A stretch of DNA of 64,000 nt from Lactobacillus sp. PV034 (GTDB taxonomy: Bacteria; Bacillota; Bacilli; Lactobacillales; Lactobacillaceae), in the NCBI RefSeq assembly GCF_014522305.1, contig NZ_CP041982.1, forward strand, positions 1,183,001 through 1,247,000, written 5' to 3'. Each line of letters begins with the position of its first letter. The first letter of the stretch is position 1. The position numbers and the translations under genes were made by a program. Below, in pieces: positions 3,600-54,514 of the stretch. The notes below the pieces were generated by a model, which made no database searches, was not told the origin of the DNA, and was given only the letters and a program-made list of their open reading frames with translations.

Positions 3600-3926
3600 A
3601 TGGACATATTAAAAGCACGTAAACAAGGAAATTCTCTTATGGTTGCCATTCCAAAGTCATTTAACATTTCCTCAGGAACAAAACTTAGACCTAAATTAAC
3701 CAAAAAAGGAATTTACTATGAATTCGTAGATGAAGATAACTTTTTTGATTTCGATGAAGATATTTTAAAAGATTTAATTACCCAAGGATATGAAGGTGCT
3801 GATCTTATTAAACAATTTCATAAGATGAAAAAAACTATTCCTGCAGCCCTCAATACCTTAGTTACTGAAACTGAAGATACCACTCCACTTACCAAAGAGG
3901 AGGCGGCAAAAGAGTTTGGCATATAG
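3600..3926 (+). CDS. AbrB/MazE-type antitoxin, orphan
   Basis: A 108-residue protein beginning MDILKARKQGNSLMVAIPKS, the swapped-hairpin AbrB fold (residues about 1-48), followed by an acidic linker and a helical tail ending PLTKEEAAKEFGI, typical of antitoxins whose C-terminus binds a MazF/PemK toxin. The ATG at 3600 is preferred over the upstream GTG at 3591, because GAGGTG at 3588-3593 is then 6 nt from the start. A 22-bp palindrome lies upstream. No intact toxin gene follows: 3927-4101 holds only stop-riddled sequence. It is therefore either an orphan antitoxin or the survivor of a broken toxin-antitoxin pair. Confidence 0.75.
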   Translation: MDILKARKQGNSLMVAIPKSFNISSGTKLRPKLTKKGIYYEFVDEDNFFDFDEDILKDLITQGYEGADLIKQFHKMKKTIPAALNTLVTETEDTTPLTKEEAAKEFGI

Positions 3927-4101
3927 TGTATTAATTAACCACAGAGTTAGAAAAATTGAACGCTTCAAATATTCCTGAAAATTAAAGAATCTATTATGAT
4001 TGGCACTTCTGCTGCGAATTGAAGTTGTCTCAAGTTTATTGATGATTATTGTTTTCCATATTCGCACCAAGAAATAACTTTATCTTGAACCTGAAATCTA
4101 A

Positions 4102-4127
4102 AAAAAGCACCCACATGGGTGCTTTTT
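4102..4127. terminator. Bidirectional rho-independent terminator
   Basis: AAAAAGCACCC (4102-4112), loop ACAT, GGGTGCTTTTT (4117-4127). It overlaps the stop codon of the minus-strand histidine kinase and also faces the antitoxin transcript. Confidence 0.85.
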
Positions 4128-5166
4128 ACTTAGGTAAGATAATTTCAAAAAATGTACCTTTATTATTTTGATAATCAGATAAAATATTGATCTTACCGTT
4201 CAATAAATTAATTATCTTGCTTACGATTGCTAAACCTAAGCCCAGTCCTTGACTTTTAGCATCAGTTTCCCCTTGATAAAATTTATCAAAAATCTTCTGT
4301 TTATCTTCTTCACTAATTTCTGGGCCATTATTTCCAATCAGCACCCTGACCTGACTTTTATTTTCTTTGCAGGCCACAAAAATCGTGCCACCTTCTGGGG
4401 TAAATTTAATCGAATTATTGATTAGGTTAATCCATACTTCTTTTAGTAATTCTGCATTAGTGTGATAACTAATTTTTACAAGATTCAATTCATAATTAAG
4501 CTTTTTTGCTTCAATTGCTGGTAATAAAGAAATTATTGTTTTACGTAATTCTTCATCAATTTCGATATTTTCTTTTTTAGTTACGATTGACCTATTTTCT
4601 AAGTTAGTCAACATCATAACTTGTCCCGATAATTTGCTTAATCTTTCTGATTCTTCTGCAATGATTGCTGCATATTCTTCTTTTTTAGTAGCTGGAACAT
4701 TCTTATCAGTCAGTAATTTTGCAAAGCCATTAATTGAAGAAATTGGTGTTTTAAACTCATGCGAAAATTGACTAACAAAATCTTCCTTCAATAATTCTGT
4801 GCTATCTAATTCAGCTGCCATTTTATTAAAGTTCTCAAATGGTTTCTTAAGTAAACGACTAGATTTATCAGGTAAGCGCGTCTTTAAATCCCCATCAGCA
4901 ACTTTTTGCATTCCTACTACTAATTTGTTCAATGACCTGAGCAATGGATTTAAAATTAGGTAAACAATAATAAATACTAAAACAAATAAGCTTACCGTTG
5001 CACCTCCACCTACAATATAGGGAGCACCATTCTTGGGCATTATTCCATAAGGTGCATATACTATAATCCCATAAAGCAGCACGCAAATAAGACATACAAT
5101 AATAAAAGCTATTACACTTGAATAAATAATCGTTGATCGCGAATATAATTTTTTCTTATTTTTCAA
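4126..5166 (-). CDS. Sensor histidine kinase, intact (second kinase of the locus)
   Basis: A 346-residue membrane kinase: two transmembrane helices (about 13-37 and 50-73) with a very short extracytoplasmic loop, a HAMP linker (about 74-124), a DHp domain with SQFSHEFKTPI (His136), and a HATPase domain with N box NLINNSIKFTPEGG and G boxes IGNNGPEI and GLGLGLAI. The short loop suggests membrane-stress or intramembrane sensing. It is downstream of, and clearly paralogous to, the interrupted kinase at 5182-6192. Both lie behind one response regulator, so the locus has a duplicated kinase with only this copy intact. It starts 15 nt after the preceding gene ends. Confidence 0.9.
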   Translation of the reverse strand: MKNKKKLYSRSTIIYSSVIAFIIVCLICVLLYGIIVYAPYGIMPKNGAPYIVGGGATVSLFVLVFIIVYLILNPLLRSLNKLVVGMQKVADGDLKTRLPDKSSRLLKKPFENFNKMAAELDSTELLKEDFVSQFSHEFKTPISSINGFAKLLTDKNVPATKKEEYAAIIAEESERLSKLSGQVMMLTNLENRSIVTKKENIEIDEELRKTIISLLPAIEAKKLNYELNLVKISYHTNAELLKEVWINLINNSIKFTPEGGTIFVACKENKSQVRVLIGNNGPEISEEDKQKIFDKFYQGETDAKSQGLGLGLAIVSKIINLLNGKINILSDYQNNKGTFFEIILPK

Positions 5167-5181
5167 TATATTATTCCTAAC

Positions 5182-6192
5182 TTACAAAGTGATTTCAAAA
5201 AAAGTACCTGCGACGTTTTGATAACTTGATTTGATATCAATCTTTCCACCAATTAATATTAAAACTTGTCTAACAATCGCTAAACCTAAGCCAAGTCCCG
5301 CATGTTTTTCAGTTGTATCTCCTTGATAGAATTTATCAAAAATCTTTTTTCGATCTGCTTCTGCAATTTCAGGTCCATCATTACCAATTACTATTTCAGG
5401 TTGTCCCTCTTTTTCCTTACAACTCACATAAACTGTACCACCAATAGGTGCAAATTTAATAGAATTATTGAGTAAATTTAACCAAACTTCTTTTAATAAT
5501 TCTGGATCTGTATGATAAGTAACTTTTTGTAAATCCAATTTATAATTAAGCTTCTTGTTTTCCATCAATGGGAGCAAAGAAATAATACTCTTTCGCAGTT
5601 CCTCATCAATCTCACCCATTCTTTGATTAGTAATAATCTTTGTATTTTCCAAATTAGTTAAATTCATAATCTGACTTGATAATTGTGTCAATCTCTTAGA
5701 TTCTTCAGCAATAATCTTTAGATACTCTACTTGTTTTTCTTTATCCAGCTTTTTTGTTAACAACAAATTAGCAAACCCATTAATCGAAGTAATTGGAGTC
5801 TTAAATTCATGCGAAAATTGACTAATAAAATCTTCCTTCATGATTTTAGTACTATCCAATTCAGAAACCATCTGGTTAAAATCTCAAAAAGTAGTAGCCA
5901 ACGGATTAAAACGTCGACTCTTTAATCGAATACTAAAATCTCCTTCTGCCACTTGTTTAATTGCCTTAGTTAAATCTTTAATATAAGCAAATAAATAAGC
6001 TATAACAATATAATTAATTAAAAAGCTAGCTGTAAATATTGCTCCCAATATAACTCGGCTCATGATATAAGTACTTGTACCCATATGGACAGAGATACCT
6101 ACCGCGGCACCAAATAAAGGTGTAGCAATTAGTGCAAGAAGGGCTGCATAAATAACTACTAAAAATGAAAAAGATACCTTTTTATTTTTCAA
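5182..6192 (-). pseudogene. Sensor histidine kinase split by an in-frame TGA
   Basis: Reading from ATG at 6192, the frame gives two transmembrane segments and a HAMP region, then meets TGA at 5884-5886. The next codon continues the same frame (DFNQMVSELDST...) through a complete DHp (SQFSHEFKTPI) and HATPase domain to 5182. Alignment with the neighbouring paralogue (PFENFNKM versus TF*DFNQM) shows that the stop replaces one residue and that nothing is frameshifted. The product would be a 102-residue membrane fragment unless read through, or the catalytic half might restart at ATG 5871. Its ATG overlaps the response-regulator stop by 11 nt. A sequencing error remains possible. Confidence 0.8.
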
Positions 6193-6859
6193 TTATTTCT
6201 CCTTTATATCCCAAACCTCTGACAGTGGTAATTTTAAATACATCCTCAAAAGGAGCACATAGTTTTCTCAATTTACTAATATGAGTTTTGACAGTATCTC
6301 CCGTGCTAAAAGAATCTTCTCCCCAGACTGCATCCAATAATTGTTCTTTATTAAATATTTGATTAGGTGAAGAAAGTAACTTATAGAGTAATTCAAATTC
6401 TTTCTTTGAAAAATCTATTTCTTTTCCATCACGTTGAGCTGTATAAGTTTGCTTATCGATAATTACATTACCGATTTCTAATTTTTGAGGATTTTCTCTC
6501 TTAGTTCTACGTGCCAATGCTAACAAACGCAACTTTAATTCTTGATAATTAATTGGTTTACTCATGTAATCATCTACACCATTAGTAAACCCGATTGTCT
6601 TATCTTGAATACTATCTTTAGCCGTTAACATTAGAATTGGAAAATCATATTTTTCTTGTCTTAGAACTTTAACAAGTTCGAAGCCATCCATCTTAGGCAT
6701 CATTACATCAGTAATTAAAAGATCAATCGAATTTTTATGGATGTAATCTAGCGCTTCTTGCCCATCATATACTTGCGCAACTTCATACTCTGCTTCTAAA
6801 TAAACTTTTAGCAATTTTTGAATATTTTTATCGTCTTCAACTATTAGTAATTTCGTCAT
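6182..6859 (-). CDS. OmpR/PhoB-family response regulator
   Basis: 225 residues. The receiver domain (1-115) has the acidic pocket VEDD (8-10), the phospho-acceptor Asp51 in LLITDVMMPKMDG, and the conserved LTAKD and KPI segments. The winged-helix Trans_reg_C domain (about 128-222) contains FSKKEFELLYKLL and TVRGLGYKGE. It is the first gene of an RR - broken HK - intact HK unit on the minus strand. The promoter at 6909-6937 is strong. Target genes are not evident; the SMR pump and permease nearby are possibilities only. Confidence 0.9.
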   Translation of the reverse strand: MTKLLIVEDDKNIQKLLKVYLEAEYEVAQVYDGQEALDYIHKNSIDLLITDVMMPKMDGFELVKVLRQEKYDFPILMLTAKDSIQDKTIGFTNGVDDYMSKPINYQELKLRLLALARRTKRENPQKLEIGNVIIDKQTYTAQRDGKEIDFSKKEFELLYKLLSSPNQIFNKEQLLDAVWGEDSFSTGDTVKTHISKLRKLCAPFEDVFKITTVRGLGYKGEIIEK

Positions 6860-6908
6860 TTTATATTTTTCTTTATTATTTTACGTTAATTTTACATTTA
6901 CCCTTTAT

Positions 6909-6937
6909 ATTATAGTTGTAAGTTAATTAGTAAACAA
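6909..6937 (-). promoter_or_regulatory. Sigma-A promoter of the two-component operon
   Basis: On the minus strand, TTGTTT (6932-6937) and a consensus TATAAT (6909-6914) are 17 bp apart, about 50 nt upstream of the response-regulator ATG. Confidence 0.65.
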
Positions 6938-7014
6938 TTATGTCTACAAACATAAAAAAATAAATTTTATATATAAAATCGCAATATTGATGAAAATATC
7001 ATATAGAAGGAGTA

Positions 7015-7566
7015 GTGATCAATAACGTGAGTAAGTTCACCTTTGAAGAAAAACAACTAGCTGTTAAATTATATTTACAAGGTACTAGTTCAGAAAAAAT
7101 CATTAAAGAACTCAAAGTAGCTTCACATTCTCAACTTTTATTTTGGGTAAAGCAATACAAGGAACACGGTTCAAGTGCTTTACGTGAAAAACGTAGCCAC
7201 CAAGAATACCCTTATGAGTTTAAACTTGAAGTTTTAAAATGGAAAAATGCAAATAATGCTTCTTATGAAGCTACTGCTTTGCATTTTGGTATTTCTAGTT
7301 CATCTTTGGTTTATAAATGGAATAAGCAACATGAACAGGGCACTTTAGCAGTGCCTGCAAGAAGAGGTCGCCCACGAAAAAAAGACTCGATCCCTCCTCA
7401 TCAAGAAGAATTAATCCAATTACGTAAACAAAATCAAGCTCTTTTAGAAGAACTCAACCGCCTCAAGCAAGCGCAAAAAATTTCGGGGGGGGAAATGATC
7501 AACCCAACTTTTTTGATCTTGCCTTTTAAACAAGAAAAAATCCAAGAATTAATGAGAAATCACTAA
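7015..7566 (+). CDS. IS3/IS150-type OrfA (transposase HTH subunit), orphan
   Basis: 183 residues with two helix-turn-helix units (FTFEEKQLAVKLYLQG near 8 and YPYEFKLEVLKW near 66), a basic RRGRPRKK stretch (about 115-122) and a C-terminal leucine-rich coiled coil (about 130-153). This is the architecture of IS3/IS150 OrfA. GTG at 7015 follows AAGGAG. No orfB with a DDE catalytic domain follows; the gene runs into a terminator at 7536. It cannot transpose by itself and is an insertion-sequence relic or a domesticated DNA-binding protein. A G8 run near 7483-7490 is noted, but there is no downstream frame to shift into. Confidence 0.75.
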   Translation: MINNVSKFTFEEKQLAVKLYLQGTSSEKIIKELKVASHSQLLFWVKQYKEHGSSALREKRSHQEYPYEFKLEVLKWKNANNASYEATALHFGISSSSLVYKWNKQHEQGTLAVPARRGRPRKKDSIPPHQEELIQLRKQNQALLEELNRLKQAQKISGGEMINPTFLILPFKQEKIQELMRNH

Positions 7567-7583
7567 TTTTTGGATTTTTTTTT
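7536..7583 (+). terminator. Rho-independent terminator inside the OrfA 3' end
   Basis: AAAAATCCAAGAATTA (7536-7551) pairs with TAATTTTTGGATTTTT (7564-7579), followed by a T run. The hairpin includes the last codons of the OrfA gene. Confidence 0.75.
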
Positions 7584-7587
7584 GCTT

Positions 7588-7911
7588 TTAATGGCCTTTT
7601 GCAAAAAAATTAGTTATTACTACTCCAATAACAATTAAAACAATACCGAATAATTGTGGTAGATTGATTCCTTGTTTCCAGTAAACTACTCCTACAACAG
7701 TAGTTAAGATAATTCCTACTCCGCCCCATGTTGCATAAGCGACACTAAGATTGAGAGTTTTCAAAGATAGAGAGAGTGCATAAAAGCAAATAATATAAGA
7801 GATTATTGTTGCAACTGCTGGTACCAATTTTGTAAAGCCTACTGAAGCTTTCATCAAATTAGTACCAATCACCTCTGCTACAATTGCAATTGCCAATTCT
7901 AAATATCCCAT
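7588..7911 (-). CDS. Small multidrug resistance (SMR) family transporter
   Basis: 107 residues with four hydrophobic helices. The EmrE-type helix 1 carries the essential acidic residue (AIVAEVIGTNLMKAS; Glu at about residue 12), and YATWGGVGIILTTVVGVVYW corresponds to the conserved helix 3 segment. These proteins export lipophilic cations or guanidinium by proton antiport as dimers in the plasma membrane. Start choice: the ATG at 7911 lies 7 nt from AAGGAG, whereas the ATG at 7917 would be only 1 nt away. It appears to be a single-gene unit; whether it is a drug or a guanidinium exporter cannot be decided. Confidence 0.85.
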   Translation of the reverse strand: MGYLELAIAIVAEVIGTNLMKASVGFTKLVPAVATIISYIICFYALSLSLKTLNLSVAYATWGGVGIILTTVVGVVYWKQGINLPQLFGIVLIVIGVVITNFFAKGH

Positions 7912-44257: not shown

Positions 44258-44336
44258 TTATTTCACACGAAACAATGAAAAACTCATAATGAGATAGAGT
44301 CTGAATTTAGGATATATCATTTATGAGCTGCTAATT

Positions 44337-44375
44337 AAAAGCCATATGTCGATATTGAGTTGATATATGGCTTTT
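44337..44375. terminator. Bidirectional terminator between gnd and the MFS gene
   Basis: AAAAGCCATAT (44337-44347) and ATATGGCTTTT (44365-44375). A weaker CTCATAA/TTATGAG hairpin precedes it at 44284-44327. Confidence 0.8.
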
Positions 44376-44414
44376 AATTTAATATTTTTTAAAGTTAAAA
44401 ATTAATATTACAAG

Positions 44415-45686
44415 TTAGTCATTAATTACAGTGGGTACTTTAACTTCAACATTTACTTTATCTTTAGCATATAATTTAATAGCTACGAATAAAATAATAA
44501 TTTCAACTACTAACAGTGTAAGTAATGCATATTTAACATTAGTTGAACCGGAAATGGTTGTTAATATTGTAGTCATTACTGGTGCTGTAGCCATAACAAT
44601 TGTATTAAGCAGGCCCACACTTGAAGCTAAAATCTTCTGATCAATTGTAGTAACTAACCATTGTTGCATTTTTAGGGAAGCAATACTTACAACTGCAGCT
44701 AATAAAAAGTAAAAAGGCAAAATTATAAGAATATTAGCAAATAAACCAGCTACTGTAGTCATTACACTTAAAGCAATTGCTATAAGAACCATAAAAAATA
44801 CTGTCTGCTTTTTAAATAATTGTAGTCCAAGAGTACTACCCAAGATCGCACCAGCACTTACTATTAGTCCAATTAATGCGAGAGTGAAACTATAAGTAGA
44901 AATAAGCATAGTTGAACGATGAGCGGCCATTACTATTGGTAATAATGAACCGATGGCAGATAAAGCTCCATTAAGAAGTGCAATTACTAAAACTACCGAT
45001 AATAAGCCTGAAGATTTTCTTATTTGAATATATGAAGACTTCATTGTAGCCCAAAATTTTTGCTCATTTACTTCTTGTGCATCTTGGAAGCTTATTTCTT
45101 TTTTACGACGAAGTCCTACACTAGCGTATAAAAAGCCTGCAAATAAAAATGTAAATGCATTAACGAATGCTAGATTAGAGTAAGACAGAAAAAGTAACAA
45201 GCCTGATCCAATAAATTGAGCCACAGTAGTAATAACTTGACTGATCCCATTGGTAAAACCCTCAGCTTCTGCAAATTCTTCTTGGCCAACTACTTCTACG
45301 ATTAAAGGAACATTGAGTCCACCCGAATAAGCACCAACTGTATCAGAAATAAAATTAATAATAACTACAGCAATTACTAGGCTCCATTGAGATATATTCG
45401 TAACGAATAATATTCCTACTAGTCCATAAAGAATGAATCTAACGACAGCCATTAAGAAGATATTTTTGAATTTATTGTGTGTTTTATCAGCTAAATAGCC
45501 ACCAAAAATATCAAATAATCTAGGAATAGATTCTGAAATTGCAATTAATGATAGTGCTAGGGAATAATTCTTTAATTTACTTGCGTAAGTCATAAATGCC
45601 AAATAAAAAAGAATATCTCCGGCACTAGATAAGAAATTAGCGATTGATAGTCTGCGGTAATCTTTATTTTTTAAAAATACATTCAT
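44415..45686 (-). CDS. MFS transporter (exporter type)
   Basis: 423 residues from ATG 45686 (MNVFLKNKDYRRLSIANFLS), with AAGGAAG 9 nt upstream; the open frame runs on to 45827 without a ribosome site. About 12 hydrophobic segments; RLFDIFGGYLADKTHNKFKN is the MFS loop 2-3 signature. It fits the MFS_3/enterobactin-exporter-like group often found beside peptide or macrolide genes. It is divergent from the 17-bp inverted repeat promoter at 45747 and from tiny ORFs and an M16 peptidase remnant, so export of a small peptide is a reasonable guess. Confidence 0.8.
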   Translation of the reverse strand: MNVFLKNKDYRRLSIANFLSSAGDILFYLAFMTYASKLKNYSLALSLIAISESIPRLFDIFGGYLADKTHNKFKNIFLMAVVRFILYGLVGILFVTNISQWSLVIAVVIINFISDTVGAYSGGLNVPLIVEVVGQEEFAEAEGFTNGISQVITTVAQFIGSGLLLFLSYSNLAFVNAFTFLFAGFLYASVGLRRKKEISFQDAQEVNEQKFWATMKSSYIQIRKSSGLLSVVLVIALLNGALSAIGSLLPIVMAAHRSTMLISTYSFTLALIGLIVSAGAILGSTLGLQLFKKQTVFFMVLIAIALSVMTTVAGLFANILIILPFYFLLAAVVSIASLKMQQWLVTTIDQKILASSVGLLNTIVMATAPVMTTILTTISGSTNVKYALLTLLVVEIIILFVAIKLYAKDKVNVEVKVPTVIND

Positions 45687-45746
45687 AATGTTTAACTTCC
45701 TTTTTGATGTTAAACACATAATATCTGCTTTATAATGAAAACATCG

Positions 45747-45816
45747 AAATAGTCGTATTTGAAAGCAAAATTCAAATACGACTATTTTATTTCTCTTATA
45801 TTTTCTTAAATATACT
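45747..45816 (+). promoter_or_regulatory. Inverted-repeat promoter A (probable Rgg box)
   Basis: AAATAGTCGTATTTGAA (45747-45763) and its exact reverse complement (45771-45787) are separated by AGCAAAA. TATACT at 45811-45816 begins 22 nt after GACTATTTT. Promoter B at 50710-50785 (minus strand) repeats the arms, the 7-nt spacer and the 22-nt gap. A dyad upstream of an extended or -35-poor promoter is how Rgg-type regulators act. GGAGG at 45840-45844 is followed 8 nt later by ATG (45853), which opens only four codons. Confidence 0.7.
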
Positions 45817-45927
45817 AAGACTATCAAGTTTAAATGTTTGGAGGTATTAGAAATGGGAGAAAGTTAAGTTATTTAATTTATAAATTTATATTAGGAGATT
45901 GTTATCATAAATAGGAGACTTATGTAA

Positions 45928-45972
45928 ATGGGACATCGTAATGGACCAGCTCCATATATTGGAACTTGGTAA
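45928..45972 (+). CDS. Candidate 14-residue peptide downstream of Rgg-box promoter A
   Basis: ATG at 45928 follows AGGAG by 10 nt and encodes MGHRNGPAPYIGTW then TAA. It is the last complete ORF before the M16-peptidase remnant. An alternative 26-codon ORF (45834-45914, starting MFGGIRNGRKL) precedes it but has no ribosome site. Small, Gly/Pro/aromatic-rich peptides beside peptidases and exporters are typical of secreted signals or modified peptides, but no family is recognised and coding is unproven. Confidence 0.35.
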   Translation: MGHRNGPAPYIGTW

Positions 45973-45997
45973 AAGTATATTATCTTAATTAATAATC

Positions 45998-46870
45998 ATA
46001 GCGGAAAAAGCTGTAATAGTGCAAGAAATTAAGCAATATGGAAATAGTAGACTAGAAAAATTTGCTAATATTGCGAGAAATTGTTCCTTTAAAAGTTCTA
46101 ATTTATTTGATGATGAAGTATTAGGCAGTATAACCGATATTTCAAATTTTTCGATGCAAGATGTTCGTAAATTTCTTAATACTCACTTAGTAAAAGAAAA
46201 TATTTCTATATTAATTGCTGGGAATAAGCATTCCTTATATCAAATTAAATCCATTTTAAATAGATATAACTTAAGAAAAGCAACATTTTCTTCGTTAATA
46301 ATTAATTCATCTGAATCACAATCTCTTTCTTTAGAAAAAATAATAATTGGGAATCAGAAAAATAAAGAACTTGCTCAATTATCTACTATATTTAAAATTT
46401 GTCATAAGCCACTAAATGAAAATAAAATCTTAGCTTTAAGTATGTTATTTTCTATTTTAAATTCAGGAAAATATTCATTATTATCTCAAATGCAACATTT
46501 TGTACCTGAACTATACTTTTTTCAAGCTATTCCAATTTTTAGAAAATCAGGCATTTATATACAATTATTAACTTCGTGTAGTATTCAAGATACAAAAGTA
46601 ATTGAAGAAAATATAAATAAAATATTTGTAACTCTATCAAATTTAAGTGTAGCTACTTTAAAAGATATTATTCATAATTTGTATTTTCATCAAAATTTAT
46701 TATTTGATGGAGTAGAAAAAAGCATTTCGTCTTTTGCAAATATGCAAGCTGAACAGGAGAAAATTATAAATTTACATAATATTGATTCAATTGCTACAAT
46801 TAATAAATTTAAAGAAATAGTCAATAAATTAATAGATCATGCTGGAAGTACTGTGATTGCTTATATTTAA
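45998..46870 (+). pseudogene. M16-family peptidase remnant (N-terminal catalytic part missing)
   Basis: The frame reads IAEKAVIVQEIKQYGNSRLE, the standard segment after the HxxEH helix of M16 (insulinase-like) peptidases, then VRKFLNTHLVKENISILIAG, the C-terminal M16 fold. The HxxEH zinc site and roughly the first 100 residues are absent, and the only start is a GTG at 46019 without a ribosome site. A deletion seems to have joined the small-peptide region to the middle of the peptidase gene. M16 peptidases mature peptides in several bacteriocin and RiPP clusters. Confidence 0.65.
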
Positions 46871-46886
46871 AAAGGGAGTATTTGTT

Positions 46887-47669
46887 ATGTTTATTTCTGA
46901 AAAAATTTTCTTATCATCAATTGCAATTGTTTTAACTTTGTTCAGTGGTGGTATAGCGATTCAAAATGTTTCTGCTGCAAATTACCAATCTAAGAACACT
47001 ACAATTACTAGTCTGCCTTCCCAAGTGATTAACCAAGTATCAATTTCTAGTATTAATGATAATGTTTATGTTAAAGTCGGGAACAAACTAAAGGTAAATT
47101 ATGATGGCCCTCAAAAATATGCCCCAACAGTGCAAGTTAAAAATAAATGTTTAGAGATTTCTTCTTCTCGTCATTTTGCTTTTAATTTCTTCTCAAAAAA
47201 GAATTATAATATCACTATTACTCTGCCAAAAGATTACTTACAAAGTTTTTCAATTAATTCATCAAATGGAAACGTAACTGTAGAACAAATTAATACCCAA
47301 AAGGGTTCAATTTCAAGTTCAAATGGCGATGTTAATATCTCTAATCTTACTTCACAATTAGGATTTGACTTATCAAGCTCAAATGGTGATATCGTAGTAG
47401 AACACCTTAATGCTAAAAAGGGTTCAATTTCAAGTTCAAATGGCGATATTAATATTTCAAATCTTACTTCACAATTAGGATTTGAATTATCAAGTTTAAA
47501 TGGTGATATTGTAGTAAAAAATACTAATGCTTCAAGATATGACCTTTCGAATTCTAAAGGGCAAAATAGATTTAAAAATATGGATGTATCAGAATCATTT
47601 TCAAAAGGGAAGTCAAGAATTAATTCATTAAAAGTTGATAACTCAAATGGTGATATCACAGTAGATTAA
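46887..47669 (+). CDS. Secreted DUF4097-like repeat protein
   Basis: 260 residues with a signal peptide (hydrophobic 8-28, likely cut after NVSA) and no cell-wall anchor or membrane tail. The body is a DUF4097-like beta-solenoid: repeated SSNGD(I/V) turns (SINSSNGNVTVEQ, SISSSNGDVNISN, LSSSNGDIVVEH, SISSSNGDINISN, VDNSNGDITVD). ATG at 46887 follows AAAGGGAG and the gene starts 17 nt after the M16 remnant, so both share a transcript. Function unknown; similar solenoids occur in envelope-stress proteins. Confidence 0.75.
   Translation: MFISEKIFLSSIAIVLTLFSGGIAIQNVSAANYQSKNTTITSLPSQVINQVSISSINDNVYVKVGNKLKVNYDGPQKYAPTVQVKNKCLEISSSRHFAFNFFSKKNYNITITLPKDYLQSFSINSSNGNVTVEQINTQKGSISSSNGDVNISNLTSQLGFDLSSSNGDIVVEHLNAKKGSISSSNGDINISNLTSQLGFELSSLNGDIVVKNTNASRYDLSNSKGQNRFKNMDVSESFSKGKSRINSLKVDNSNGDITVD
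47301..47534 (+). repeat. Two 117-bp tandem repeats in the DUF4097-like gene
   Basis: AAGGGTTCAATTTCAAGTTC recurs at 47301 and 47418, and the following sequence stays nearly identical for the full 117 bp (39 codons), giving two copies of a two-coil solenoid unit. Confidence 0.8.
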
Positions 47670-47752
47670 AGTAAGTGGTCTATTGTAACGCTTTGAAAAG
47701 ATTAGAAAAATATCAACAGCATATCTCAAAAAATTAAATTTAGTAATAAGAC

Positions 47753-47780
47753 AAAAAGGCAGCCTAAATGGCTGCCTTTT
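47753..47780 (+). terminator. Terminator
   Basis: AAAAAGGCAGCC, loop TAAAT, GGCTGCCTTTT. Confidence 0.85.
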
Positions 47781-47913
47781 CAGATGCAATAAAAATAGCG
47801 AAATTATTCTCCTAGTTTCATAGTTTATATTAAGAAATTTTCTATGAGTTTTTTATTTTGGCTTATAATATGAAGGGTACAAAAATAGAGTAATAAAAGT
47901 TATGGATTAAGTT

Positions 47914-49473
47914 ATGAAAAAAACACTTACAGCTATATATTGGAAGCTTATTTTTCAATCAATTATTGTCGGTGCACTAGTTGGTGCAGTCGTTGGTGCC
48001 TTTCGCTGGGGGCTAGAATATGTAACAAATTGTTGGCAAAAGGTATTTTCAAATGCACATGAGAATGCTGTTTGGTTCGTAGTAATTGTTATTGGTTTTA
48101 TTTTAATTAGTGTGATATCTGGTTTGCTAGTAAAAAGACATCCCCATGTGGGTGGTTCTGGGATTCCAGAAGTTAAGTTAGAATTAGCTGGTAAATTATC
48201 TTTGAATTGGTGGCCAACTTTGTGGCGCAAGTTTATTGGTGGAATTTTAACAATTGGTTCGGGACTTTTTCTTGGACCAGAAGGTCCATCTTTGCAGATG
48301 GGAGCAATGGTTGGTAAAGGTGTAGCTCAAGGGTTTAAGCAATCTAAAACTAATGCCAGAGTGTTACTCGCTAGTGGGGGTGCTAGTGGCCTAGCTGCTG
48401 CTTTTGGGGCACCTTTAGCTGGGAGTATGTTTATTTTAGAAGCAGTCTTTCGTGATTTTGCACCTCGTGTTTGGATGACGGCACTAGCAGGTGCGATTTC
48501 AGCTAATTTTGTGGTATCAAATATGTTTGGTCAACATGAAGCCTTACCACTACATTATGGACATATGTTACCGCTGAATTTATATTGGCACTTAGTAATT
48601 TTAGGTTTATTAATTGGACTTTTAGGTCACCTATATAAAGTTGGTTTATTTAGTATCAAAAAGATTTACGCTAAAATTACTTTCTTGCCTAGTTGGTTAT
48701 ATAGCTTGATTCCTTTAGCAATTTTAATTCCAATTGCTTACTATATGCCAGCTATTACAGGATCAGGTAGCCGCTTAATTATGGCACTTAACAAAATGAT
48801 TGGGCCATTGGGATGGACGGTTGTAGGGATGTTAGGAATTTACTATTTGATTCGGTTGGTATTTTCAATTGTATCCTACGATTCAGGTGTACCAAGTGGT
48901 GTCTTCTTGCCGGTTTTAACGTTGGGAGCCGTGATTGGTGCAACTTATGGCGCCTTTATGGCGCAATTAGGTTTATTGCCCGAGCGTTATATCATTAATT
49001 TGATTATCTTTTCTTTAGCTGGTGCATTTGCTTCAGTAATTCATGCTCCATTTACAGCGATTTTATTAATTGCTGAAATGGTTGGCTCAATTTTCCAATT
49101 AATGCCACTAGCTGTAGTAGCCTTTATTGCCTTATTGGTAGATGACTTTATGGGTGGCCATCCAATTTATGATCAATTGGCTAACTTGATGGAAAAATCA
49201 GGCGATTATCATGAAGAAAGAACTGGCAGACAAGACCAGATAACGTTACCTGTCTATGAAGATAGCAAGCTAGTAGGTAAAAAGATTGCTGAGATTAAGT
49301 GGCCGGAAAATACTTTGGTCCGTATGATTAGACGTAACAGTGAAGATTTAATTCCAGTAGGAAAGACAATCATTCAAGCTGGAGATATGTTAGTAATCGA
49401 GGTAGATGAAGGTGAACGAGGTAAAATTTATAATGCAATGAAGAAATTACAAGGTGTTGAATTAGACGGATAA
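47914..49473 (+). CDS. ClC-family chloride channel/transporter with RCK C-terminal domain
   Basis: 519 residues. ClC selectivity motifs in order: GSGIPEVKL (about 85), GPEGPSLQMG with the gating Glu (about 122), FILEAVFRDF, and SGVPSGVFLP (about 325). The C-terminal 85 residues (about 430-515) form a TrkA_C/RCK_C domain, as in Lactobacillus and Enterococcus homologues, suggesting ligand control. It probably exchanges Cl- (or F-) for protons in acid stress. Single gene between the peptide locus and mleP. Confidence 0.88.
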   Translation: MKKTLTAIYWKLIFQSIIVGALVGAVVGAFRWGLEYVTNCWQKVFSNAHENAVWFVVIVIGFILISVISGLLVKRHPHVGGSGIPEVKLELAGKLSLNWWPTLWRKFIGGILTIGSGLFLGPEGPSLQMGAMVGKGVAQGFKQSKTNARVLLASGGASGLAAAFGAPLAGSMFILEAVFRDFAPRVWMTALAGAISANFVVSNMFGQHEALPLHYGHMLPLNLYWHLVILGLLIGLLGHLYKVGLFSIKKIYAKITFLPSWLYSLIPLAILIPIAYYMPAITGSGSRLIMALNKMIGPLGWTVVGMLGIYYLIRLVFSIVSYDSGVPSGVFLPVLTLGAVIGATYGAFMAQLGLLPERYIINLIIFSLAGAFASVIHAPFTAILLIAEMVGSIFQLMPLAVVAFIALLVDDFMGGHPIYDQLANLMEKSGDYHEERTGRQDQITLPVYEDSKLVGKKIAEIKWPENTLVRMIRRNSEDLIPVGKTIIQAGDMLVIEVDEGERGKIYNAMKKLQGVELDG

Positions 49474-49588
49474 TTAAAAATAAGTCTTTAAAAATTTTTA
49501 AAAAGTGTTATAAATAATTCGTCCGGGAAATGCACATATAGGCATTTCATTACACTAATAAAATTTTATTTATATGAGAGGGGATTAG

Positions 49589-50557
49589 ATGCAAGCATTT
49601 CTATCATCTATCCAAAGTGTAGTCGTTATCGTTTTGATTATGCTTCTAGGATACATTCTTAGAAAACAAAGATGGCTCGCAGATTCATTTGGTGGCAATG
49701 TTTCTAAGTTAATTACTCAAATTGCCTTGCCTGCTTCCATTTTTATGTCTGTTCAAAATAACTTAACTAGAGGTAAGTTATTTAACTTATTTGCAGGCTT
49801 ACTTTTACCATTTATTGGGGTAGTTATTTCCTACATTGTAGCCTTTATTTTAGTTAAGGTTCTTAAGGTTAAGGTTGGTCGTCGAGGGGTATTTATCAAC
49901 ACCATTGCCAACGCCAACACAATCTTTATTGGGATGCCTTTGAACTTGGCACTTTTTGGTAGTGCTGCAACTTCATACTTCTTAATCTACTACATCATTA
50001 ATACCGTTTCTACTTGGGCATTTGGTGTGTTCTTGATTAAGAATGATGATCCAACTTTAGTTAAGGCTGAAAAGCAACATAACAAGATTAATTGGAGAAA
50101 GATTTTACCAATGCCTTTGGTTGGTTTCTTCGTAGCTGTTATTTGGTTATTAACTGGAATTCAATTACCTAAATTCCTTGGTGATACCTTTAACTACGTT
50201 GGTAGCTTAGTTACTCCATTATCATTAATCTATATTGGTATTGTGTTAGCTAATGCAGGTCTTAAGAGTATCCACTTTGATAAAGATACAATCTTTGCTT
50301 TACTTGGACGTTTTATTTTAGCTCCAGTAGTAATGATTTTATTGGTTAAGTGGTTTGGACCTTCAGTACTTCACTTAGATATTGCAAGCCTAATGGGTAA
50401 GACATTTATTGTTCAATCTGCTACTCCAGCGCTTGCTGTTCTTCCAATCTTGGCTGGTGAAGCACATGGTGATGTTGACTACGCAACTAACGTTGTTGTT
50501 TTGAGTACTTTGCTCTTTATCATCGTAGTACCAGTTTTAATGTTTATCATTGGTTAA
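49589..50557 (+). CDS. mleP: AEC-family transporter, probable malate permease
   Basis: 322 residues, about ten hydrophobic segments, auxin-efflux-carrier fold: LIMLLGYILRKQRWL at the N-terminus, NTIFIGMPLNLALFG (about 108-122) and QSATPALAVLPILAGEAHGD (about 272-291). Its closest functional context is mleR/mleS at 53.6-56.3 kb, so malate uptake or malate/lactate exchange is likely (inference). An rgg/IS110 block now separates it from mleR. Confidence 0.8.
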   Translation: MQAFLSSIQSVVVIVLIMLLGYILRKQRWLADSFGGNVSKLITQIALPASIFMSVQNNLTRGKLFNLFAGLLLPFIGVVISYIVAFILVKVLKVKVGRRGVFINTIANANTIFIGMPLNLALFGSAATSYFLIYYIINTVSTWAFGVFLIKNDDPTLVKAEKQHNKINWRKILPMPLVGFFVAVIWLLTGIQLPKFLGDTFNYVGSLVTPLSLIYIGIVLANAGLKSIHFDKDTIFALLGRFILAPVVMILLVKWFGPSVLHLDIASLMGKTFIVQSATPALAVLPILAGEAHGDVDYATNVVVLSTLLFIIVVPVLMFIIG

Positions 50558-50563
50558 TCAACT

Positions 50564-50637
50564 AAAAAATAAGGCTTCAAATGAAGCCTTATTTTTTACG
50601 TTAAAATGTTCCATAGTGTTTCTTTTATAGTATAAGT
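50564..50637. repeat. Direct repeat L: terminator plus degraded mleR 3' end
   Basis: AATAAGGCTTCA/TGAAGCCTTATT (arms 50564-50579 and 50582-50597) terminates mleP. It continues into CGTTAAAATGTTCCATA, and the minus strand reads YTIKETLWNILT-stop, homologous to the mleR C-terminus KEEVLWNILTQKK. The same order is present at 53613-53680, so this is one copy of a direct repeat bracketing the rgg block. Confidence 0.75.
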
Positions 50638-50670
50638 TTAAATAAGGATAGTAAGAGTACCTGTGTTCAT
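50638..50670 (-). CDS. Candidate 10-residue peptide under Rgg-box promoter B
   Basis: ATG at 50670 lies exactly 8 nt after GGAGG (50679-50683) and encodes MNTGTLTILI then TAA. It is transcribed from promoter B just downstream of the rgg stop. Its hydrophobic C-terminal end is in keeping with a short hydrophobic pheromone, although it is shorter than known SHP precursors. Low coding evidence; the promoter and ribosome-site geometry are the support. Confidence 0.4.
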   Translation of the reverse strand: MNTGTLTILI

Positions 50671-50709
50671 AAGTTTTTCCTCCAATTAAATAAATATTTA
50701 TTGGAATTA

Positions 50710-50785
50710 AGTATATTAGTAAATGATTAAGAAAATTAAAATAGTCATATTTGAATTTAAGTTTCAAATATGACTATTTTAATTT
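50710..50785 (-). promoter_or_regulatory. Inverted-repeat promoter B (probable Rgg box)
   Basis: A perfect 23-bp inverted repeat with a 7-nt spacer (arms 50733-50755 and 50763-50785; core TAGTCATATTTGAA), overlapping the rgg stop codon. On the minus strand GACTATTTT is followed after 22 nt by TATACT (50710-50715). Relative to promoter A the arms differ by a compensated G/A-C/T pair. It may also end rgg transcripts, since a short T-rich stretch follows. Confidence 0.7.
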
Positions 50786-51478
50786 ATTTATATTTAAGTA
50801 GAAGACGCTGTAAAGTCGCTCCATATTGTGACATATCAATACTTATTAATATATTTACTACCTCTTTACTTTTATTAAAAAATTTAGTATTTTTTGTTGT
50901 TCTGTAATTTATCATATTTTCAAAAAATGATAATGCTAATTTGTAGAAAACTAATTCAGGTCGTATTTTTATCTTTTTAGCATTAGTAATAAAGTAATTA
51001 ACGTCTTTTTCATTATTTTCATCAAGTGAAACGGCTAAAACATTTACAATGATAGCGGATAAAGCAATCTGCATTTTAATATTATTACTTAATATATATT
51101 GATTAATAATTTTTTTAGCAATTATCTTGTTACTTTCTAAGTCATAAAAAGGCATAAAATTACAAAATAGAGCTACCTTGTTTTCGTTAAAGTTGGGAAT
51201 GCTAAAAATTTTTTCTTTAACTTTATCTCTAAGCTGTTTGTCAGGTTTTTCAGTTGTCTCTTTCATTATTTCTAGCCAAGCATCAATAAGTAATAGTTCC
51301 TCTTTTTTCTACGTAAAGTCAAGCACAATACGATGTTTGACTATGTTTTTAGCTTGAATTTTAGTTTAAGTAGCTATTAATGTCGATATATTTTTGGAAT
51401 TAAGCACGATAAATAAGCCCAAGTTTATATCTGATTTTTGGGCTTAGCGTTATAATGTAGTTGATCAATTAATTACGA

Positions 51479-52686
51479 CTAAAGTCTTTTTTGGTTATGT
51501 GTGGCTACGTTGTAATCATATAGTTGATCATTAATAATCAGGGCATAAATTGTTCTGATTAGTTTATGTATTGAAGCAATAGCTATCTTTTTAAACCCTT
51601 TGGTTTGAGAAGATAGCTTTTTGCTTTCATAATAATCTGCTATGTGACACGGATTAGTCTTAGCCGCATTATCAATTTGACCAATAGCACGATAAAGCAA
51701 TTTACGTGCTATTGCATTACCATGCTTAGTAATACTTAAATTAGAATCCATTTCACCTGACTGATATCTACCTGGATCTATGCCAATAAAAGCATTAATT
51801 TTATTGGGATTGCTAAATCTGCGTACATCTCCCAATTCTGCTAAAACTCTAACTGCAGTAGTTTGGGCAAAACCTGGAATACTTTCTAGATTTTCTAAAT
51901 CATGATTAGGTAAAGTCTTAGCGAGTTTAACCATTCTTGTAATTAATTGTTCTCTTTGCTTACTTAGATTAAGTAGTCTTTGGGTATAATATTGTACTTG
52001 TTGAACTTCTATACTAGTCTCGGAGACAACTGGATAAGCTTGATAAGCTAATTCAATAAGTTTATCAGCAGTTTTTTGAGCATGTTTAAATGCAATACCT
52101 TTTAAATTCATTAGCCAATTAATAATTTGATTTTTGTTCTCTTGTCTTACTAAATCGCAATGAGGGTAATGAGCAACTATTTGCCAGTAATTATTACCTT
52201 TAGCAGTAGAAAATAGATTTTCAATTTCGGGAAAAGTTGATTGTAAAGCCTGGTGAAGTCTATTTTTAGCTGTGACTAAATCATCTGTTAGCTGGTCATA
52301 GAAACGACTCAAAGCATTGAGTTGCTTATAAGACTGAGACTGATTTTGACTAACTGGATGATGATAAAGTCTTTGAATTAAGGCTAAATGATAAGCATCA
52401 GTTTTATCAGTCTTATTATGACGTAGTCCCAAATCCATTTCTTTTTTTGCTTTAAGAGGATTAAGCACAACATATTCATAACCGTAATCTTCTAGAAAAG
52501 CTTGTAGTCTGCGTGAATAAACACCAGTAGCTTCTCTGGCTGTTTAGTAAAAGCAGCTAATTCGTGCAGTAATTTAATAAAACCAGGACGGTCGTTAGTA
52601 ATGGTAAATTCATTTTTACTTTCACCAATTAGCTCACAAATAGTAGAAGTAGACTTACTTACATCAATTCCAAAAGTAATTTGCAT
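51479..52686 (-). pseudogene. IS110-family transposase, frameshifted
   Basis: N-terminal RuvC-like part MQITFGIDVSKSTSTICELI from ATG 52686; the frame is lost near 52540, where EATGVYSRRLQAFLEDYG continues in another frame and joins the C-terminal part (from about 52530). That part carries ESIPGFAQTTAVRVLAELGD and FIGIDPGRYQSGEMDSNLSITKHGN, the transposase_20 motif with its catalytic serine region. The loss of a few bases at CAGCCAGAGAAGC explains the shift. The element is probably immobile without help in trans. Confidence 0.8.
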
Positions 52687-52875
52687 TATATAACCCCCTA
52701 AGCTTAAGTAGTAAAACGTATTTACTTAAGAAATCAGATCTAATTTTCTAAACTCGACATCAACGTGTCCACATTCTTCGAAGAGATTATTGATAGCCTA
52801 AGTAAAACTGCCAGTTTTGTCTACGACATCAAGTGTCTAAAAAGGCTTTGACATATCGTTTTACTACTACTTAAA
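52687..52875 (-). ncRNA. Candidate IS110 bridge RNA (seekRNA) region
   Basis: IS110 elements carry a guide RNA in the noncoding stretch ahead of the transposase. Here about 250 nt lie between the IS end and ATG 52686, bounded by near-inverted repeats TTAAGTAGTAAAACG (about 52704-52718) and CGTTTTACTACTACTTAA (about 52857-52874). On the minus strand TTGATGTCG occurs twice. GTTTTGTCT (52814-52822) also occurs at the right junction (52947-52955), as a target guide should. The RNA itself is not demonstrated. Confidence 0.4.
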
Positions 52876-52892
52876 TTCTACAAGAGAATAAA

Positions 52893-52936
52893 AAATAGTG
52901 AATTAATTATCCCGTCGGATAACTAATTCACTATTT
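52893..52936 (-). terminator. Strong hairpin at the IS110 5' end
   Basis: A 20-bp stem with one G-U pair: arms 52893-52912 and 52917-52936 around a 4-nt loop, followed on the minus strand by T residues. It would stop rgg transcription entering the element. Confidence 0.7.
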
Positions 52937-53310
52937 AGCTTAGAATGTTTTGTCTTTTTCAGAAAGATTACTTTCTTTTACTAGTGGCCGTAATCTTATT
53001 ACTTTCTGTTTATTATTTTCATAATAAGCTTCAATTAGTGTATTATTAAAATCTTGAATTTCTTGATGCTTAATTTCATCATTTTGATTTAATCGACTAA
53101 AGAATTCCCATAAAGGAATGTTATTGTAATGAAGAAGATCAATTAAACTATCAGCCGTAATTCTATGAGCATTCTTTTCTACTTTAGAGTAATAAGATTG
53201 ACTTATAATTGTGCCTTTGTTAGTAAATTCTTTTTGTTTCTTCGCTTGTGCAATTCTGTATTCCTTAAGTAACTCTCCGATTGTCATAATTGTATGCTCC
53301 ATATAAATTT

Positions 53311-53340
53311 AAATACGACTTTTTCATTAATTATATTATA
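53311..53340 (-). promoter_or_regulatory. rgg promoter with half Rgg-box
   Basis: Minus-strand TATAAT at 53335-53340 is followed by AAAAAGTCGTATTTAAA (plus-strand AAATACGACTTTTT at 53311-53324), which matches one arm of the inverted repeats at 45747 and 50733. Its place just past the -10 suggests negative autoregulation. Confidence 0.5.
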
Positions 53341-53514
53341 AAACTAATATCGTTAGATAAGTTTAAAAGGAAAATAAAGAAAATTAATGCATTTTAAAAA
53401 CATAATTATTAACATACAAAAGTAAGAAGTTAAAATTTCCCTATTTACGTAAAAGCTTATTAAGCTCTCGTGCAGAATTTCACGTACGAGTAGTAAAAAC
53501 AAGATAATATAAGG

Positions 53515-53590
53515 CGTGCATAGTGTCCTTTGGTGGTTCTTAGGACGGGCAAGGTCTTGCAGGGACGGTCAGATGCCCGTCTTTTTTGCT
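53515..53590 (+). ncRNA. Candidate small structured RNA
   Basis: A GC-richer stretch in an AT-rich gap: GTCCT/AGGAC hairpin (53525-53546), then GACGGGCA (53544-53551) with TGCCCGTC (53574-53581) and a T6 tract, with a GATAAT -10 at 53503-53508. No ORF and no known riboswitch core was recognised. It points toward the mleR 3' end and lies inside the right edge of the rgg block. The rest of the gap 53341-53514 shows only an imperfect CTCTCGTG/CACGTACGAG hairpin. Confidence 0.45.
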
Positions 53591-53612
53591 AAAAATATCT
53601 AAGGAAAGAATA

Positions 53613-53680
53613 AAAATAAGACTTCAAACGAAGCCTTATTTTTTTTGCGTTAAAATGTTCCATAATACTTCTTCTTTTGC
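53613..53680. repeat. Direct repeat R: terminator plus mleR 3' end
   Basis: AATAAGACTTC/GAAGCCTTATT with a T run ends mleR, followed by GCGTTAAAATGTTCCATA inside the gene. It is the partner of the repeat at 50564-50637, with several base differences, so the duplication is not recent. Confidence 0.75.
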
Positions 53681-54514
53681 AGTAAGAAGATGATTTTTTC
53701 TTGTTGCAGCTGCGAAAAGAAATTCTGGTTGATCCTTATCTAAAAGTGGGATAGAAACTACATTATCATTGTCATGAATAGAAAGAGTAGTTACATAAGA
53801 AACACCCAAATTTTGCGCAACTAATGACTTAATTACCGCAACATCAGGACTACGATAAATGGTATTAAGTGTAATATGATTTTGATGTGCCAGCTTTTCT
53901 AAAGCTTGAGTATGGATGTAGTCTTGAGTCATGCCAATGAAGTTTTCTTGAGATAATTCTTTGAAATAGATTCCTTTTTTTTGAGCAAAGGGATGATTTT
54001 TTGAAACAATTACTTCTATTGGATAGCGGTCGATTACATGAACTTTAATAATTGGTTCAATATCTAAAGAGGCAAGACCAAGTAAGGTAAGATTAATTTC
54101 ACCTTCAATTAGCATTTTACGTAAATCATTAGAACCACGTTCTACTACATTTAAACGAGGTAAAATTCCTTTTGAAAAAAGCGTAGGTGCGATAGTAGGT
54201 AAGTAGTTACGACCAATAATTGGTGGTAGTCCAAATAAAATATCAGGGTTAGGTTGAGCCTTAACCTCAGCTTCCGCAATTGAAACTTCATTCAAAATAG
54301 CTTGAGCATGTTCATCGAATTGACGGCCGAGACTAGTGATAATGATACTTTTATGTGATTGATCACGGATAATGAATTGGCCACCGAATTTTTTCTCTAA
54401 ACGTTTGATGGCGGCTGTGATAGTTGGTTGACTCACATTAAACTGTTCTGCGGTTTTGGTATAGCTCTTTAGATTTATTAAAGCATGAAAATATTTGAGA
54501 TCTTGAATATTCAT
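53636..54514 (-). CDS. mleR: LysR-family regulator of malolactic genes
   Basis: 292 residues. Winged HTH (MNIQDLKYFHALINLKSYTKTAEQFNVSQPTITAAIKRLEKKFGG) and a LysR effector domain (about 90-290). Divergent from the malolactic enzyme gene with a 128-bp gap, the normal mleR arrangement; malate is the expected inducer. It would bind the ATAG-N12-CTAT dyad near the mleS promoter. Confidence 0.88.
   Translation of the reverse strand: MNIQDLKYFHALINLKSYTKTAEQFNVSQPTITAAIKRLEKKFGGQFIIRDQSHKSIIITSLGRQFDEHAQAILNEVSIAEAEVKAQPNPDILFGLPPIIGRNYLPTIAPTLFSKGILPRLNVVERGSNDLRKMLIEGEINLTLLGLASLDIEPIIKVHVIDRYPIEVIVSKNHPFAQKKGIYFKELSQENFIGMTQDYIHTQALEKLAHQNHITLNTIYRSPDVAVIKSLVAQNLGVSYVTTLSIHDNDNVVSIPLLDKDQPEFLFAAATRKNHLLTAKEEVLWNILTQKK

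Follow-up and report, generated by a model that had tools for sequence, protein, structure and literature searches.

The question raised by this locus is whether two matched inverted repeats in a stretch of 64,000 nucleotides (nt) from Lactobacillus sp. PV034 (contig NZ_CP041982.1, positions 1,183,001 to 1,247,000; the whole stretch is called the window) belong to one circuit controlled by a regulator of the Rgg family. A circuit of this kind with two target promoters had been proposed in an earlier note made from the letters of the window. The two dyads, A and B, were therefore rechecked and compared with related genomes, plasmids and viral contigs. The reading that we regard as quite probable is an Rgg/short-leaderless-peptide quorum circuit in which A and B are the operator-promoters of one Rgg-family activator. 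The features in question, in coordinates of the window, include open reading frames (ORFs) preceded by Shine-Dalgarno (SD) sequences:

45747..45787, plus strand: putative operator dyad A, 17-nt arms and 7-nt spacer
45811..45816, plus strand: TATACT, -10-like element of promoter A, 29 nt past the right arm TTCAAATACGA
45853..45867, plus strand: 4-codon ORF MGES, with GGAGG 8 nt upstream
45928..45972, plus strand: tiny ORF MGHRNGPAPYIGTW, the next after MGES, preceded by an SD-like AGGAG
50739..50779, minus strand: putative operator dyad B (core arms), at the 3' end of rgg
50710..50715 (read 50715-50710), minus strand: TATACT, -10-like element of promoter B, 29 nt past the right arm
50638..50670, minus strand: 10-codon ORF MNTGTLTILI, with GGAGG at 50683-50679

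Two dyads, two putative promoters and a divided rgg gene

The arms of dyad A (45747-45763 and 45771-45787, 17 nt each) were found to be 100% complementary and those of dyad B (50728-50755 and 50763-50790, 28 nt each) 93% complementary, both around a spacer of 7 nt, in a repeat search that was independent of the rechecked letters. Over 93 nt the A and B regions match each other in inverted orientation at 74%, and a compensated G/A change distinguishes the arms (TAGTCGTATTTGAA/TTCAAATACGACTA versus TAGTCATATTTGAA/TTCAAATATGACTA). In both promoters GACTATTTT is followed after 22 nt by TATACT, and behind both a GGAGG is followed after 8 nt by an ATG (45853 on the plus strand for A, 50670 on the minus strand for B). 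The arms, spacers, compensated change and distances given in the earlier note were thus all recovered, and its account of the genes behind the promoters held as well: at the end of rgg, dyad B is followed by TATACT and the ORF MNTGTLTILI, and promoter A heads MGES, MGHRNGPAPYIGTW, the remnant of an M16 peptidase gene and the gene of a secreted DUF4097 protein, beside a divergent gene for an exporter of the major facilitator superfamily (MFS). MGES is probably the decayed first ORF behind promoter A, and MNTGTLTILI is a candidate leaderless signal peptide.

In the proposed circuit, as we infer it from the sequence, Rgg with a bound short peptide would bind the inverted arms of 11-12 bp and would recruit RNA polymerase to the TATACT element at the fixed distance of 29-30 nt. 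Promoter B at the end of rgg would give rise to leaderless MNTGTLTILI, a signal that would induce its own production after export, perhaps via the MFS pump, and re-import. Through promoter A the same regulator would drive a second operon with a tiny-peptide ORF, the M16 peptidase and the secreted DUF4097 protein, a step that is supported by the comparison with relatives. The choice of the signalling peptide, its export by the MFS transporter and any role of the other tiny peptides are to be read in the same conditional sense.

The pattern TAGTCNTATTTGAA-N5-9-TTCAAATANGACTA occurs at exactly two sites, A and B, in the 1.58-Mb genome (control 0) and at three sites in two of 75 genomes of the genus, the other genome being that of L. 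kalixensis DSM 16043 (G026). The looser pattern CRTATTTGAA-N3-10-TTCAAATAYG gave seven sites in six of the 75 genomes, and the reversed pattern none. The earlier note had asked for such a search of related genomes; the dyad was not found to be widespread beside genes unrelated to rgg, as all seven looser sites have an rgg relative, or what is left of one, within 5.0 kb (at 15, 17, 24, 28, 1705, 4271 and 5007 nt).

The proposal of one quorum-type circuit with two target promoters was supported by the arrangement in two relatives. In L. kalixensis the locus is uninterrupted and consists of an MFS gene facing away, the half-site TAGTCGTATTTGAA, rgg, the dyad right after its stop codon, TATACT, GGAGG and the 9-codon ORF MTNTGGITI, followed by tiny ORFs that include MNKIFLHTIEPFK, MRIIFGKGRCW, MINISIKIKIVKN, MKIEVSIKITFGK and MKHIHIGPAPHIGTW. 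Genome G021 has the same layout with MTHLGGIIV, MSLLHYIIYY, MRKLFPHTIEPFK and MNLHHIGPAPFIGT, and independently possesses a second operator 4.3 kb further, which heads MYLLFLPPWITPYK, MHRVIIFGKGRCW, MFPRIEWHKI, a precursor-like ORF of 50 amino acids, an ATP-grasp enzyme and an ATP-binding cassette (ABC) exporter. Because of this layout, one rgg with two operator-promoters recurs in a second species with other cargo. The ATP-grasp enzyme (TIGR04187 2e-32, under the curated cut-off of the model; CdnC structure 5.7e-16) resembles graspetide maturases, and the counterpart of the second operon would thus be a graspetide-like operon for a ribosomally synthesised and post-translationally modified peptide (RiPP), headed by tiny ORFs. 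In the incomplete genome G070 the end of rgg is without an operator, and an ABC exporter gene with its operator follows 1.7 kb away. The locus in the window is, by comparison, a damaged member of this putative Rgg/short-peptide family, fuller copies of which precede strings of tiny-peptide ORFs and RiPP operons.

The damage extends to rgg itself, for which the following features were assigned:

52953..53287, minus strand: N-terminal helix-turn-helix (HTH) part of rgg, likely start ATG 53287, lower edge approximate
51290..52953, no strand assigned: IS110-family element splitting rgg, edges approximate, from alignment to other copies
50784..51300, minus strand: C-terminal part of rgg (Rgg_C domain), upper edge approximate
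53308..53319 (read 53319-53308), minus strand: half-site GTCGTATTTAAA with one mismatch, 20 nt before the rgg start

When the two halves were searched separately, they matched HTH_3 (24.4 bits) and Rgg_C (42.2 bits), both over cut-off, and the Rgg of L. kalixensis matched HTH_3, Rgg_C and TIGR01716, all over cut-off; the N-terminal HTH and the C-terminal domain of the Rgg family are therefore both present. Alignment of the two parts, taken separately, to the Rgg of L. kalixensis accounts for all of it except at most about one residue. The IS110 element is 86% identical to a copy on an L. crispatus plasmid. Judged by these sequences the circuit is broken in this genome, because rgg is split by the element, a ThiF relative was not found (none in the genome at E 1e-10) and the M16 gene has lost its HxxEH part.

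A second rgg gene without stops (L046, G000:C1:1163072-1163923) is located 65 kb from dyad A, and the dyads could be real operators that are served mainly by this intact paralogue, in which case they may remain active. Its promoter, divergent to an MFS gene, holds GTCATATTTGAA, which is the arm of dyad B, and its HTH segment closely resembles that of the rgg in the window. However, the paralogue is 51% identical to the Rgg of L. kalixensis, its peptide specificity need not match, no operator dyad stands behind it and no SD-preceded ORF of less than 20 codons was listed there, and we consider it unlikely to be the main regulator of A and B.

For the Rgg/short-peptide circuit, a half-site in the rgg promoter had also been claimed in the earlier note. 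The site is present with one mismatch, but a lone half-site is not above chance: with up to two mismatches, 10 were observed in the window versus 7.5 expected, and the exact 11-mer has 12 matches in the genome (four of them the dyads) versus 5 for the reversed control. Upstream of the rgg starts of relatives, scanned up to 110 nt from the start, the arm GTC(G/A)TATTTGAA was found exactly in 13 of 71 genes and with at least 11 of its 12 positions in 36 of the 71, standing 13-41 nt before the start; the 71 genes, from fetched relatives with enough upstream sequence, are family-biased and partly redundant. The half-site before rgg suggests that the gene may be autoregulated.

The distance to the -10 element was compared in 20 hand-picked operator promoters, namely those of 17 listed rgg loci, promoter A, the second site of G021 and the site of G070. 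The right arm and the start of TATACT are 29-30 nt apart in 15 of them (14 found by script and L177, with divergent arms), four of which (L049, L136, L174, L175) are close relatives, and three more have a near -10 at the same distance (TATATT in L047, CATAAT at the homologous sites of G021 and G070). In shuffled A and B stretches TATACT at +29/+30 was obtained in 0.4-0.5%.

These observations also bear on the idea that the dyads are intrinsic bidirectional transcription terminators, with B ending rgg transcription and no regulator involved. RNA folds of -21 and -24 kcal/mol (z -8.5 and -10.5), a terminator scan passed by both dyads on both strands, and, in many relatives, a dyad that directly follows the stop codon of rgg and is rich in T on its right side are in favour of it. 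Dyad A and the second site of G021, however, are flanked by genes that start in opposite directions, so that no gene ends at either site, the same 12-mer is also present in front of rgg starts, and the motif itself is kept and not the pairing alone, usually with TATACT at the fixed distance. Terminators without a regulator therefore appear improbable, and dyad B may well be both operator and terminator. Rfam gave no match at gathering threshold in 44300-53700.

Small open reading frames behind the putative operators

Strings of tiny ORFs were found behind the operator on plasmids pFAM8105 of L. helveticus and pLcDC21.1_1 of L. crispatus, which carry the MFS gene, rgg, the dyad and TATACT, followed by 8 and 9 tiny ORFs, respectively. 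They span about 0.8-0.9 kb, where the incomplete table of PLSDB shows no gene, and have 13-17 codons except for one of 34-35 codons in each plasmid. On plasmid pIBH003-4 of L. helsingborgensis (L136, after 4855), MNTSTFGWVVIIHS is repeated in tandem behind the operator, with three copies that follow a degenerate first one. Genome G008 (L123 1795-6968, reverse complement) has two rgg genes and a separate operator for each; the first operator is followed by MKPLDLALMKFHVNTEE and MTLLSLPPWIIPYK, and the other, as in the window, by an M16 remnant and a DUF4097-like ORF.

Such ORFs could be spacer or attenuator sequence of the transcript and not encode peptides, as AT-rich DNA readily gives rise to ORFs of 9-17 codons and a simple SD rule passes only part of them (5 of 8 in L. 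helveticus, 7 of 9 in L. crispatus, 7 of 7 in L. kalixensis and 3 of 4 in the first operon of G021). Their codons indicate otherwise. Between the L. helveticus and L. crispatus plasmids, seven ORF pairs (116 codons) gave a proportion of nonsynonymous differences (pN) of 0.121 and of synonymous differences (pS) of 0.353 (ratio 0.34, Fisher p 2e-5), and four pairs of L. kalixensis and G021 including the signal ORF (43 codons) gave 0.166 and 0.528 (ratio 0.31, p 3e-4), where the Fisher tests treat sites as independent and the counts of the latter comparison are rounded. Moreover, the same peptide motifs recur across species behind the same operator. These comparisons show several of the tiny ORFs to be conserved at the protein level, and a mere spacer has little probability.

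Agreement is found mainly from the C terminus, with 157 of 200 positions for the last 8 residues and 92 of 244 for the remainder (ungapped; pairs within a family are not independent). MGHRNGPAPYIGTW belongs to a GPxPxIGT family common to L. kalixensis, G021 and G072. The corresponding DNA pattern was present in 6 of the 75 genomes; four copies (window A, G021, G026 and G072) stand behind the operator and that of G057 is fused with a half-operator that follows a broken rgg, and for the copy in G027, a genome without the dyad, no half-site with up to one mismatch was found in the 9 kb examined. The GPPPYIGT fragment of G027 (L081 2195-4585, about 6660-6720) lies near a class III-like LanKC gene and an ABC exporter gene. 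The LPPW pattern was found in two of the 75 genomes, behind operators in both (control 0), and the YDPWWRINL pattern in none of them, this peptide having been seen only on the plasmids of L. helveticus and L. crispatus.

That a dispersed repeat, such as one carried by a mobile element, came to stand beside rgg by chance is hardly credible. Several loci are on plasmids or on a contig with mobilisation-like genes, and the bare core palindrome was found in 38 viral-contig stretches, but the low copy number (2 in the genome, 7 across 75 genomes) largely refutes the idea. In those 38 stretches TC precedes the arm in none of 76 oriented matches and an Rgg-like ORF was not found either, TATACT standing at +33 in two of them. 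A phage origin was rejected as well, with no Rgg match at E 1e-5 among 50,697 phage records and no Rgg-like ORF beside the viral palindromes.

Several results weigh against an Rgg/short-peptide circuit of the proposed kind. The first ORF behind promoter A amounts to MGES only, and no intact tiny first ORF is present at the dyad loci of G035, the second rgg of G008, L174 and L175. A strict rule assigns the dyad to only 13 of 68 full-length rgg genes, with L135 (wider spacing) scored as lacking it. On the rgg tree the dyad is scattered, with 9 changes against a mean of 12.1 after shuffling; 4 of 500 shuffles were as low. Frequent decay and recombination of these loci would lead to such a pattern, and G057, G008 and the window are examples with visible damage. 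Among the chosen promoters, L045 has TATAAT at +26 and L178 is without a clear -10 element. More distant pairs of tiny ORFs (305 codons) reach a pN/pS of just 0.60, the LPPW pair, one of the seven of the two plasmids, has no excess of synonymous changes (pN 0.36, pS 0.34), and the signal ORF alone gave no sign of selection in three pairs of 7-8 codons each (pS 0.23-0.59, pN 0.21-0.64). Finally, the share of rgg genes with a divergent MFS gene is not significantly higher where the dyad is present (10 of 13 versus 28 of 55, Fisher p 0.12), and MFS linkage was rejected as a marker of the dyad.

Neighbouring genes and related operons

The genes next to promoter A were assigned as follows:

44415..45686, minus strand: MFS transporter, facing away from dyad A; relatives often have such a gene divergent to rgg
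45998..46870, plus strand: M16-type peptidase remnant, residues 106-396 of the 396-residue relative in G035, 61% identical
46887..47669, plus strand: secreted DUF4097 (toastrack) protein, behind the M16 remnant

The M16 remnant is without the HxxEH part, which reads HLIEH in the relative of G035. In that genome the order is rgg, dyad, TATACT, a ThiF-like gene, a full M16 gene and a DUF4097 gene, and the 5' part of the ThiF gene and the ORFs upstream of it appear to be deleted. The DUF4097 gene thus follows the M16 gene in G035 too, and a look-alike ORF follows it in G008. An internal tandem duplication of 117 nt with 85% identity is found in the DUF4097 gene of the window (47262-47495).

A RiPP-type operon with one or more precursors of 38-40 amino acids ending in EVR...NW(Y/F)FI, a ThiF/E1-like enzyme, an M16 peptidase and an ABC exporter is found in G007, G150, G061 and G046, where the ThiF and M16 genes of G046 look broken. 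These operons are located at:

L120, 6788-11023
L121, 5711-9999
L122 (reverse complement), 3846-7883
L126, 5605-9671

The M16 remnant of the window falls in the enzyme family of this operon. A gene for a CLC-type channel adjoins the locus in three genomes (window 47914-49473, L040 1338-2672 and L131), with a Pfam match in the window and look-alike sequence in G021 and G070, as if it might mark a preferred site of the island.

Whether the operator marks a new kind of Lactobacillus locus, a quorum-controlled operon of up to nine small peptides that are exported by the MFS transporter and serve as an antibiotic cocktail or as cross-talk signals, can be put forward only tentatively and is rather doubtful. 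If this were true, the peptides would mostly be leaderless and 9-17 residues long; most would have an SD of their own, and each would carry a conserved motif at its C terminus (LPPWIxPxK, GPxPxIGTW, HTIEPFK, FGKGRCW / FGDRPWQRRGL, YDPWWRINL, VQPNxHIxI and others). It is in the plasmid versions, which are without modifying enzymes, that the peptides would act in this way, taken up by the peptide permeases of neighbours. With a clear operator motif, sequence searches can find the targets of such regulators; here the motif led to two kinds of RiPP enzyme operon and to series of conserved peptides, mostly 9-17 residues long, which are absent from the incomplete plasmid gene tables that were consulted. 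It is thereby directly testable which genes the Rgg regulators of lactobacilli control, and through which peptide.

Comparison with known systems

In the streptococcal Rgg/SHP (short hydrophobic peptide) and RaS-RiPP circuits, Rgg reportedly adjoins a small-peptide gene and RiPP operons are among the targets. The SHP pro-peptide has about 20 or more residues and an N-terminal leader. In contrast, the candidate first ORFs described here have 9-17 codons without a leader and are not SHP pro-peptides by this measure. RaS-RiPP operons have a radical SAM enzyme; the RiPP enzymes identified here are ThiF/E1-like or ATP-grasp enzymes.

Graspetide clusters are resembled by the second operon of G021 in its ATP-grasp enzyme, precursor-like ORF of 50 amino acids and ABC exporter, and differ from it in that the G021 operon is headed by an Rgg operator and the tiny ORFs. 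Similarity to the microcin C (mcc) operon (PMC7136475, in part) is given by the E1-like protein of G035, whose best solved-structure match is MccB (8e-19), with an MFS gene nearby. Such an MccB-like enzyme was found for the relative G035 only. An Asn-ending heptapeptide was not identified: no tiny precursor of this kind was seen beside the ThiF gene of G035, where the 5' part and the upstream ORFs appear to be deleted, and L. kalixensis has MINISIKIKIVKN but no ThiF match. Unlike in microcin C, an M16 peptidase and the Rgg operator are present. A microcin C operon, which had been suspected from this gene, was lowered as a candidate, since the ThiF-M16 relatives in G007, G150, G061 and G046 adjoin precursors of 38-40 amino acids and an ABC exporter.

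In the parts of the literature covered, RRNPP_detector reports an Rgg pair in its strict output only when the peptide matches the SHP model, and six Lactobacillaceae biosynthetic clusters are listed as possibly under RRNPP control (PMC10075063). In the portion of PMC9765709 used here, no propeptide genes next to Rgg genes are reported. By title and start of the abstract, no paper on this operator or on the tiny ORFs was found, and the supplements of the leaderless communication peptide (LCP) paper may list Lactobacillus entries.

The LCP class, recognised only recently (2023), comprises leaderless signals, mostly of 8-10 residues, beside receptors of the RopB clan, and four further species including Limosilactobacillus reuteri were tested (PMC10518010, in part); L. 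crispatus, L. helveticus, L. gasseri and MFS are unnamed in the main text of that paper. Shared with these systems (PMC10518010) are an Rgg-family receptor next to an ultrasmall, leaderless ORF of about 8-10 codons that has a strong SD, an inverted repeat in the promoter of the peptide (12-4-12 in S. salivarius), and biosynthetic and transporter genes among the putative targets. A leaderless ORF with a strong SD was found in MNTGTLTILI (10 codons), MTNTGGITI (9) and MTHLGGIIV (9), each with GGAGG, 7-8 nt and ATG, and the first ORFs behind other dyads have up to 17 codons.

There are also differences from the LCP systems. The peptide ORF lies downstream of rgg and co-directional with it, whereas the preferred but not obligatory layout in the LCP paper is divergent (PMC10518010). 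The operator motif differs, with a gap of 7-8 nt between 11-bp arms in most loci. G021 and the window have two operator-promoters per regulator, and several loci have strings of further tiny ORFs. A profile of 13 Rgg sequences is closer to Rgg2 (4yv6, 2e-13) and Rgg3 (7ji0 group, 4e-12) than to RopB (E 0.0015), but the matched RopB chains span the C-terminal domain only, and the receptors may yet belong to the RopB clan. Because the LCP class with its leaderless Rgg-type peptide signals has already been described (PMC10518010), the type of circuit is not new in itself, and the systems presented here, with their putative signalling, look as if they worked in an LCP-like manner.

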